DNA from: Aquariibacter albus
Lineage (GTDB): Bacteria; Pseudomonadota; Gammaproteobacteria; Burkholderiales; Burkholderiaceae_C
Direction of reading: 5' to 3'
Assembly: GCF_014145335.1 (NCBI RefSeq)
Contig: NZ_JACIVI010000002.1
Span: forward strand, 124,001-188,000
Length of the DNA: 64,000 nt
This document shows, piece after piece, positions 50,143-58,336 of this stretch. The position numbers and the translations under genes are program-made. Position 1 is the stretch's first letter, and each line of letters opens with the position of its first letter. The notes below the pieces were generated by a model. That model was not told the origin of the DNA and did not search any database. It saw nothing but the letters and a program-made list of their open reading frames with translations.

Positions 50143-51105
50143 ATGCACGCCACCCTCCCGCTCCTCGTCGCCACCGATTTCCCGCCGGTGCGCCGCGCTG
50201 CGCTGCAGACCCTGCAGGTCAATCTGGGCTACCGCTGCAACCAGAGCTGCCTGCACTGCCATGTCAATGCCGGCCCGAACCGCAGCGAGATGATGGAGGC
50301 GGCCACCGTCGACCAGGTGCTGGCCGTGCTCAAGGCCCGCCGCGTCGAGACCCTGGACCTGACCGGCGGCGCGCCCGAGCTGAACCCGCACTTCCGCCGC
50401 CTGGTGGCCGGCGCCCGCGCCCTGGGCGTGAAGGTGATCGACCGCTGCAACCTCACCATCCTGTCCGAGCCCGGGCAGGAGGATCTGGCCGAGTTCCTGG
50501 CCGCGCAGGGCGTGGAGGTGGTGGCCTCGCTGCCCTGCTACTCGCCGGCCAATGTCGACCGCCAGCGCGGCGACGGCGTCTTCGAGGCCAGCATCGCCGG
50601 GCTCAAGCGGCTCAATGCCCTGGGCTACGGCCAGGACGGCAGCGGCCTGGGGCTCAACCTGGTCTACAACCCGCAGGGCCCCGTGCTGCCGCCGCCGCAG
50701 CAGAAGCTGGAGGCCGACTACAAGCGCGAGCTGGCCGCGCACTTCGGCATCGTCTTCAACCGGCTCTATGCCCTGACCAACATGCCGATCCAGCGTTTCG
50801 GCAGCACCCTGGTCTCCAAGGGCAGCTTCGCCAGCTACATGGCCCTGCTGCGCGGCGCCTACCAGGCCGAGAACCTCGACACCCTGATGTGCCGCAGCAC
50901 GGTCAGCGTGGACTGGCAGGGCGACCTCTACGACTGCGACTTCAACCAGATGCTCGGCCTGCGCGCCCGGTTGAAGGGGCGTGAACGACCGCAGCTGGCC
51001 GATCTGCTGGGCGAGGACCCGGACGGCGAGGCCGTCCACATTGCCGACCACTGCTACGGCTGCACCGCCGGCCAGGGCAGCAGCTGCGGCGGAGCCCTCG
51101 CATGA
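50143..51105 (+). CDS. arsS: ArsS-type radical SAM protein (rSAM/Cys-rich domain)
   Basis: The 320-residue protein has the radical SAM cluster C32-x3-C36-x2-C39 (GYRCNQSCLHCHVNAGPNRS) and the SAM-binding LDLTGGAPELNPHFR. Its C-terminal Cys-rich domain includes MCRSTVSVDWQGDLYDCDFN and the final CYGCTAGQGSSCGG with C304, C307 and C315; some family members have selenocysteine in this domain. The family is linked to arsenosugar formation in organisms with ArsM. The next gene overlaps by ATGA and heads a set of associated transferases. No arsM is in the window, so the substrate in this organism is open. Confidence 0.88.
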   Translation: MHATLPLLVATDFPPVRRAALQTLQVNLGYRCNQSCLHCHVNAGPNRSEMMEAATVDQVLAVLKARRVETLDLTGGAPELNPHFRRLVAGARALGVKVIDRCNLTILSEPGQEDLAEFLAAQGVEVVASLPCYSPANVDRQRGDGVFEASIAGLKRLNALGYGQDGSGLGLNLVYNPQGPVLPPPQQKLEADYKRELAAHFGIVFNRLYALTNMPIQRFGSTLVSKGSFASYMALLRGAYQAENLDTLMCRSTVSVDWQGDLYDCDFNQMLGLRARLKGRERPQLADLLGEDPDGEAVHIADHCYGCTAGQGSSCGGALA

Positions 51106-57569: not shown

Positions 57570-58336
57570 ACCTCGGCCCGGAGGCGGCCGCCCGGCAGAC
57601 GCTTGCCCCAGCGCTCGCGTTGCTCGGGCTGCTCGCGCCAGGGGCGCTGGCCGGCCCGGTGGCGGCGGCCGAGCCGGTCTGGGTCGGCCGCTTCGACGCC
57701 GGCCTCGCGCCCTGGCGCGAGCAGGCGCTCAAGCCCGGCCTCACGCCCAACCGCCACCGCCTGCGCGCCTGGGACGGCCGCGCGGCGGTCGAGATCCGCT
57801 CGGCCAAGAGCTTCTCCCTGCTCGCCCGGCCCCTGGCGATGGACCTGGCCGCCACGCCCGTGCTCTGCTGGGCCTGGCGCATCGACGCGCCGCTGAAGAC
57901 CGCCCGGCTCGGCGACAAGGCCGGCGACGACTATGCCGCCCGGCTCTACATCAGCCTGGCCATCCCGCCCGAGGACCAGGGCTTCGCCCTGCGCGCCAAG
58001 CTGGCCCTGGGCCGTTCGATCTTCGGCCCCGAGCTGCCCGATGCCGCGCTGAACTATGTCTGGGACGGCCAGGCCGCGGTCGGCACCGCCCAGCCCAATG
58101 CCTACACCGACCGGGCCATGATGATCGTGCAGCGCAGCGGCGCCGCCCAGGCCGGCGCCTGGGTGCAGGAGCGCCGCGACATCGCGGCCGATGCGCGCCG
58201 CCACTTCGGCCCCAGCGCCCGGCCGGTGCAGATCGCCCTGGCCGTCGACACCGACAACACCGGCGAATCGGCCGAGGCCGGCTTTGCCGACCTGCACTTC
58301 GTCGCCGCCGACCAGCCCTGCGCGCCGCCGCCCTGA
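57566..58336 (+). CDS. DUF3047 exported protein
   Basis: A 256-residue protein with a signal sequence (LAPALALLGLLAPGALAGPV ... AAAEP) and a DUF3047 domain: VWVGRFDAGLAPWREQALKP, LCWAWRIDAPLKTARLGDKA, DDYAARLYISLAIPPEDQGF, LNYVWDGQAAVGTAQPNAYT and AVDTDNTGESAEAGFADLHF. The fold is likely a jelly-roll/lectin-like beta sandwich; such domains could bind sugars. It is the last gene of the operon and overlaps the phosphorylase stop. Function unknown. Confidence 0.83.
   Translation: MNLGPEAAARQTLAPALALLGLLAPGALAGPVAAAEPVWVGRFDAGLAPWREQALKPGLTPNRHRLRAWDGRAAVEIRSAKSFSLLARPLAMDLAATPVLCWAWRIDAPLKTARLGDKAGDDYAARLYISLAIPPEDQGFALRAKLALGRSIFGPELPDAALNYVWDGQAAVGTAQPNAYTDRAMMIVQRSGAAQAGAWVQERRDIAADARRHFGPSARPVQIALAVDTDNTGESAEAGFADLHFVAADQPCAPPP

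Follow-up and report, generated by a model that had tools for sequence, protein, structure and literature searches.

Sequence analysis of an eight-gene ArsS operon in Aquariibacter albus, a predicted variant of the arsenosugar-type gene cluster

Within the window, the 64,000 nt stretch of Aquariibacter albus DNA analysed here (contig NZ_JACIVI010000002.1, positions 124,001 to 188,000), eight open reading frames (ORFs) lie on the + strand between positions 50143 and 58336, all with translations free of internal stops. Neighbouring genes overlap by ATGA at five of the seven junctions (51102, 53312, 54211, 55579 and 57566), and the remaining two are gaps of 22 bp (54922–54943) and 20 bp (56704–56723); given these overlaps and short gaps, the eight genes are likely to form an operon with a single transcript. 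This agrees with the original prediction, made from the sequence before the present analysis, of an eight-gene, one-strand operon with mostly ATGA junctions, and its statement that no arsM is located inside the operon was also borne out by family scans of the ORFs. A motif scan recognised no σ70-like promoter for the operon, the one terminator-like site lies within the oxidoreductase gene and does not exceed the number found in shuffled sequences, and there were no Rfam matches within positions 45000–64000 of the window.

The first gene (50143..51105) encodes the radical SAM enzyme ArsS (320 aa; TIGR04167, PF12345 and PF04055), which has a CxxxCxxC motif and a DUF3641 C-terminus. It scored 463.1 bits against TIGR04167, above the curated equivalog cut-off of 300, and neither the CxxxCxxC cysteines nor the C-terminal cysteines varied across an alignment of 17 sequences that includes the window ArsS. 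The second gene (51102..53315) encodes a 737 aa fusion of a VTT-type membrane domain to a MerA/LpdA-like FAD disulfide oxidoreductase (PF09335, PF07992, PF02852), for which the top NCBIfam model, NF004991, requires 620 bits and gave 504.8. The third and last genes encode a DUF547 protein (53312..54214; PF04784, 88.3 bits) and a DUF3047 protein (57566..58336; PF11249, 206.5 bits), each with an export signal recognised by eye at the N-terminus; the predicted structure of the DUF3047 protein is beta-rich (pLDDT 84) and gave weak matches only, to axonemal, carbohydrate-binding and other proteins. Between them lie the genes for a TIGR04283 family 2 glycosyltransferase (54211..54921; 266.5 bits, above the curated equivalog cut-off of 182), a TIGR04282 (DUF2064) protein that is probably a CofC-like nucleotidyltransferase (54944..55582; 199.5 bits, above the cut-off of 134), a TIGR03169-like FAD oxidoreductase without the SelD half (55579..56703; 295.7 bits, just below the cut-off of 310) and an MTAP-like nucleoside phosphorylase of 281 aa (56724..57569). 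The general kind of cluster is already known, since NCBIfam labels both TIGR04282 and TIGR04283 as 'arsenosugar biosynthesis glycosyltransferase', and an excerpt of PMC13077682 consists of a genome listing with these NCBIfam names. Judged by its genes, the window operon is a variant of the known ArsS arsenosugar-type cluster.

The source genome spans 3.31 Mb over 11 contigs, has a completeness of 99.66% and contains a single ArsS above the cut-off. Searching it with the bacterial ArsM model NF008823 gave a match on contig 1 of about 175.9 bits, below the cut-off of 263, which corresponds to a 353 aa ORF (C1:1425531-1426589) on another contig than the operon. Among solved structures, this protein matches two arsenite methyltransferases, 5evj (1.5e-103) and 4fr0 (2.6e-89), which are enzymes of two algae, Chlamydomonas and Cyanidioschyzon, and the cysteine motifs SAC, SNCV and GECL seen in these alignments are all present in it; because of the match to 5evj, the genome can be said to possess the ArsM expected of an arsenosugar pathway. 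It is of a type distinct from the NCBIfam arsenosugar ArsM, as it scored 84.4 bits against that model (NF038099), which has a cut-off of 400. Downstream of arsM, on the same strand, are genes for a PstS-like binding protein, PstC, PstA and PstB, with PstA scoring above its cut-off and the other three below theirs, and the arsM-pst gene order is identical in the sister genome G081.

The first alternative in the original prediction, that arsM lies elsewhere in the genome, therefore holds, and the genome search that it had proposed for arsM and selD located both, each outside the operon contig. The selD gene lies on contig 5, where it adjoins senB (382 bits for SenB, cut-off 300), and since senB-selD lie there, away from the operon, selenium has a locus of its own. 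The other alternative, that the system works on another element such as selenium or sulfur, is weakened in this genome by the ArsM on contig 1 and the separate senB-selD locus, and we reject the argument from a missing arsM to another element for this genome. The main puzzle of the absent arsM is thereby largely solved for A. albus.

Gene neighbourhoods were compared across 120 ArsS loci, of which 40 came from a family search and 80 were the named-record loci most similar to the window ArsS (the best 80 of 398); eight of the 120 were removed as duplicates with identical ArsS DNA, and 49 of the remaining 112 because their flanks were shorter than 7 kb, which left 63. TIGR04283 was found in 56 of these loci and TIGR04282 in 51, as expected from the claim that the two families co-occur with ArsS, followed by the VTT oxidoreductase (48), the TIGR03169-like flavoprotein (38), relatives of the phosphorylase (27; 13 at 52% identity or more and 14 at 40–47%), DUF3047 (24), DUF547 (20), a PhnD-type binding protein (17) and algal-type ArsM (14). 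Relatives of at least five of the seven other window genes were present in 32 of the 63 loci, so the homologues of this operon do occur together elsewhere, contrary to the pattern that would have refuted the original prediction, and more than by chance. On these counts, the module is widespread in proteobacteria, and the window operon is one of its arrangements. The linkage is variable, as relatives of all seven other genes were found in three loci and of none in one, and this variability, together with the distance of the arsM-pst genes from the operon, would fit a role in detoxification only, where ArsS makes a harmless adduct that is then exported and the rest of the genes are neighbours with loose linkage. 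We consider such a role very unlikely, since it does not agree with the 32 loci that share at least five genes, nor with the presence of TIGR04283 in 38/38 and of TIGR04282 in 37/38 of the ArsS genomes described below.

Co-occurrence was assessed in 299 genomes drawn evenly from the family of the source genome, 38 with ArsS and 261 without. Algal-type ArsM (E ≤ 1e-50) was found in nine genomes, all with ArsS and none among the 261 others, and in six of the nine (G002, G027, G050, G123, G238 and G253) arsS was located within 6 kb of the algal-type ArsM gene. ArsM recognised by the bacterial model alone did not track ArsS (2/38 versus 9/261, p 0.64), and it should be noted that the Fisher p values for the co-occurrences over the 299 genomes, which are tiny, are too small, because they count related members of a single family as independent. 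Unexpectedly, for 27 of the 38 ArsS genomes no ArsM was found with the algal-type protein (best six candidates scored per genome), the bacterial family (best eight) or the arsenosugar ArsM model (all candidates), and 17 of these 27 are listed as 98–100% complete. With so many ArsS genomes lacking a detectable ArsM, a strict ArsM-then-ArsS pathway is a poor fit for the family as a whole.

A PhnD-type binding protein was present in 14/38 ArsS genomes and 1/261 others, the lone ArsS-negative genome being 73% complete and encoding TIGR04282 and the phosphorylase on the same contig as the PhnD-type protein. It was found in 13 of the 27 ArsM-negative ArsS genomes versus 1 of the 11 ArsM-positive ones; the 38 genomes thus divide into one with both ArsM and PhnD, 10 with ArsM only, 13 with PhnD only and 14 with neither (Fisher p 0.03). 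This pattern may reflect mutual exclusion of ArsM and the PhnD transporter, but after kinship correction three pairs remain on branches with good support (median p of 1), too few for a proper test. Around arsS in the 14 genomes negative for both (15 loci, five of them shorter than 11 kb), no real methyltransferase motif was detected, the sole match (in L144) being false; among the controls, L124 with arsM nearby matched as expected, and L113 with arsM on another contig gave no match.

Scavenging of methylated arsenic would explain the ArsS genomes without ArsM. The 27 genomes negative in all three ArsM searches may also indicate a different substrate, for example selenium, sulfur or a phosphorus compound that the PhnD-type transporter of the sister clusters would import, which would account for the near-exclusive occurrence of the PhnD clade in ArsS genomes and for the full-length oxidoreductase-SelD fusions encoded near ArsS at three loci (L035, L044 and L060). 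However, a search for the PhnD clade found nothing in the source genome, which has a senB-selD locus of its own and contains an ArsM of the type that was seen only with ArsS among the 299 genomes. Furthermore, on a quick ArsS tree (41 ArsS rows, covering every ArsS genome of the 38 except G246) with 8 of its 38 inner branches well supported, the ArsM-bearing genomes were scattered (nine changes), so that ArsS shows no obvious split by substrate. A substrate other than methylated arsenic is hence quite unlikely in our view.

The phosphorylase belongs to the PNP/UDP phosphorylase superfamily (PF01048, 124.2 bits with a gathering score of 25.1), and fell below the cut-offs of the MTAP equivalogs TIGR01694 (251.6 versus 274.85 bits) and NF006492 (258.5 versus 437 bits), hence its description as MTAP-like only on the strength of these scores. 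Its best relative in the PDB is a chain named RsfP, followed by methylthioadenosine phosphorylases, and it contains a TDYDCW motif, of which we take the TDYD part to bind adenine. Relatives (E ≤ 1e-30) were detected in 48 of the 299 genomes, with 34/38 of the ArsS genomes positive (absent from four) versus 14/261 of the others, and this tracking of ArsS is new here; it also supports the original proposal of an ArsS-centred pathway, with the phosphorylase splitting a 5′-modified nucleoside and the transferases using the resulting sugar phosphate. Most of the relatives are 39–49% identical to the window phosphorylase, and 11 genomes have one of at least 65% identity, eight with ArsS and three without (G190, G196 and G272); in G196 and G272 this close relative lies apart from other operon genes.

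The three ArsS-negative genomes, the kept TDYD motif and the mostly methylthioadenosine phosphorylase relatives in the PDB would fit a clean-up function, in which the phosphorylase recycles 5′-deoxyadenosine or MTA formed as by-products of SAM enzymes, ArsS among them, and the sugar for the transferases has another source. Radical SAM enzymes are widespread, and against such recycling the relatives of the phosphorylase are largely limited to ArsS genomes. The source genome also encodes a separate MTA/SAH nucleosidase (290 bits against a cut-off of 169), so ordinary MTA removal should not depend on the phosphorylase. As to the literature, a section of PMC8102628 describes salvage of 5′-deoxyadenosine, a common by-product of radical SAM enzymes, but in the scheme given in part of PMC12159101 the deoxyadenosyl group is joined to arsenic by ArsS and not released. 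Taken together, clean-up appears rather unlikely, and we favour a role of the phosphorylase on the ArsS product itself.

The original prediction had listed two transferases; both families indeed score above their cut-offs, but the two are probably unlike each other, TIGR04283 being a family 2 glycosyltransferase and the TIGR04282 protein probably a nucleotidyltransferase. A TIGR04282 profile built from 25 sequences matched the unassigned structure 3cgx (1.8e-38), 2i5e (7.8e-7), a 3-phosphoglycerate guanylyltransferase (9.5e-6) and a 2-phospholactate guanylyltransferase (0.0033) in the PDB. The predicted structure (pLDDT 96) had 3cgx as its top match, followed mainly by guanylyltransferases, cytidylyltransferases and pyrophosphorylases among the 50 matches listed of 332 (E ≤ 0.001), and these 50 included no glycosyltransferase name except that of 3cgx itself. 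The window protein scored 47.5 bits against the CofC model TIGR03552, below the cut-off of 105, and is thus not classed as CofC, although profile and structural model suggest that it probably works like a CofC-like nucleotidyltransferase. The reading of TIGR04282 as a plain glycosyltransferase was rejected, as both model and profile point to nucleotidyltransferases, and the predicted nucleotidyltransferase-like fold of a family that NCBIfam names a glycosyltransferase is new here.

TIGR04283 was present in 58 of the 299 genomes, in 38/38 of those with ArsS and 20/261 of those without, and from its presence in these 20 genomes it must also serve another role. TIGR04282 was searched for in 74 chosen genomes, and was detected in 37/38 ArsS genomes, 19/20 genomes that have TIGR04283 and lack ArsS (a partial match below the cut-off in two of them) and 0/16 with neither. 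If a nucleotidyltransferase and a glycosyltransferase work as a pair, they require a sugar phosphate, and the nucleoside phosphorylase would supply it. For comparison, we investigated loci from 10 of the 20 TIGR04283-positive, ArsS-negative genomes. TIGR04282 was located beside TIGR04283 in nine of these ten loci, a relative of the phosphorylase (42% identical) was present in two, and a nucleoside hydrolase in five, in four of which it was about 1 kb or less from the TIGR04282/TIGR04283 pair. A kinase-like protein was encoded in seven, including all five with the hydrolase, and neither hydrolase nor kinase-like protein had a match in the ArsS loci (E ≤ 1e-12). The label kinase-like is uncertain, with Pfam APH found in one of six proteins and an ecdysteroid kinase-like family in three of six, below the cut-off, and no credible relatives in the PDB. 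A hydrolase would release a free sugar, which requires a kinase, and a phosphorylase would release a sugar 1-phosphate, which requires none, so this pattern is as predicted from a need for sugar 1-phosphate.

Given the observed gene content, families, linkage, co-occurrence and predicted TIGR04282 fold, we propose that the operon encodes the later steps of an arsenosugar-type pathway, with the first enzyme, ArsM, encoded on another contig, and give this reading a probability of roughly 0.6. Radical SAM adenosylation of arsenic during arsenosugar synthesis is described in part of PMC12159101, where Cheng 2021 is cited, and an excerpt of PMC8552651 states that SsArsS works together with SsArsM. 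The Pst-type transporter encoded beside arsM may import arsenate; by analogy with relatives, ArsM would methylate the arsenic, and ArsS would join dimethylarsenic(III) to the 5′ carbon of the SAM-derived deoxyadenosyl radical. The MTAP-like phosphorylase could then take off adenine to give 5-deoxy-5-dimethylarsenoribose 1-phosphate, which the TIGR04282 protein may activate with a nucleoside triphosphate, allowing the TIGR04283 enzyme to move the arsenoribose onto an acceptor, for example glycerol or a lipid. As a guess, the two flavoproteins may set how reduced arsenic or thiols are, and DUF547 and DUF3047, once exported, may handle the product outside the cytoplasm. Since the cluster places candidate enzymes for every step close to ArsS (phosphorylase, probable nucleotidyltransferase, glycosyltransferase), the steps are open to assay one purified enzyme at a time.

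A more speculative extension, possible but with the odds against it, is that ArsS clusters encode the complete route to metalloid sugars, through phosphorolysis and nucleotide activation, with TIGR04282 producing an NDP-arsenoribose as the missing donor for arsenosugars and arsenolipids. Under this reading, most ArsS bacteria of the family would not methylate arsenic and would instead depend on scavenging arsenic that is already methylated (or a related oxyanion), in many cases via the PhnD-type ABC transporter, so that arsenosugar synthesis outside algae would often be recycling fed by other organisms. If the transporter reading is true, it would explain how ArsS functions in bacteria without an arsenic methyltransferase, and would suggest trade in methylated arsenic among bacteria. 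An excerpt of PMC10456119 contains nothing about arsenosugar genes, and in part of PMC12452194, on bufferin clusters with DUF2063, DoxX, a sigma factor and NrsF, there is no word starting with 'arsen'. No account of the steps after ArsS or of an arsenosugar donor was found in titles and abstract openings, a search with subscription papers mostly outside its range.

The ArsM-ArsS arsenosugar pathway of the cyanobacterium Synechocystis was reportedly described by Xue in 2019, a study cited in PMC8552651, and ArsS itself is said to be the subject of a 2021 study by Cheng. The window system shares with the cyanobacterial pathway an ArsS above the cut-off, an ArsM in the genome and the TIGR04282 and TIGR04283 companions, and differs from it in that the ArsM is algal-like and located on another contig. 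The window ArsS is also accompanied by the MTAP-like phosphorylase, the VTT oxidoreductase fusion, the TIGR03169-like flavoprotein and the DUF547 and DUF3047 proteins. The selenoneine/selenosugar pathway consists of SenA, SenB and SelD, and is similar in having a metalloid-bearing sugar, as proposed here, and in that the operon flavoprotein belongs to a family that can be fused to SelD, but SenB is absent from the operon, and SenB and SelD are encoded elsewhere in the genome. The CofC/FbiD guanylyltransferases, which act on phospho-acids of F420 synthesis, are among the named solved folds closest to TIGR04282 in the 50 matches listed of 332, whereas the substrate proposed here for TIGR04282 is an arsenosugar 1-phosphate. 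Finally, the arsinothricin cluster arsQML resembles the proposed pathway in that a radical SAM enzyme forms a carbon-arsenic bond and ArsM takes part, according to excerpts of PMC8552651 and PMC12159101, but it transfers a 3-amino-3-carboxypropyl group and is a three-gene cluster without sugar enzymes.

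The start of arsS is adjoined by a gene reading in the opposite direction (49,456–49,839, minus strand), which encodes a short protein with a C-terminal PEP-CTERM sorting motif. A second gene divergent from the arsS operon (49,007–49,384, minus strand) encodes a small protein in which the PsiF repeat (PF07769, 42 bits) occurs three times; the name PsiF refers to phosphate starvation.

Elsewhere in the same genome, arsM is followed by genes for a Pst-type transporter (L158, contig 1, 5541–10,126, minus strand), in which PstA scored above its cut-off and PstS, PstC and PstB below theirs. 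This gene order is shared with the sister genome (L205), and the transporter may be tuned to arsenate. The genome also carries adjacent senB and selD genes (L160, contig 5, 1393–3594, minus strand), a selenium locus separate from the arsS operon.

Within the ArsS tree, the protein of L152 (genome G169) is divergent, with 49% identity and a very long branch. No other window gene was mapped near it in the neighbourhood map, and the TIGR04283, TIGR04282 and phosphorylase relative of G169 are on a different contig.

The neighbourhood maps also showed that a bufferin-type copper-RiPP operon sometimes adjoins the ArsS clusters of other genomes (L035, L056, L069, L071, L077, L081, L082, L084, L085, L093, L114, L115, L119, L130 and L132), with DUF2282, DUF2063 and DoxX, and in some cases a sigma factor and NrsF. 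Of the 63 long-flank ArsS loci, 10 gave a match to the DUF2063 query. The text of the bufferin paper (PMC12452194) contains no words starting with 'arsen'.

In one genome lacking ArsS, a TrsS-like radical SAM protein other than ArsS (105 bits versus 490) is encoded at L218 (10,569–11,993, minus strand), where its gene adjoins DUF547, with TIGR04283 and a phosphorylase relative nearby. In further ArsS-less genomes (L222, L223, L225, L226 and L227), TIGR04283/TIGR04282 pairs occur together with genes for a nucleoside hydrolase and for a kinase-like protein, and these five gene sets possibly represent a sister pathway for another modified nucleoside.
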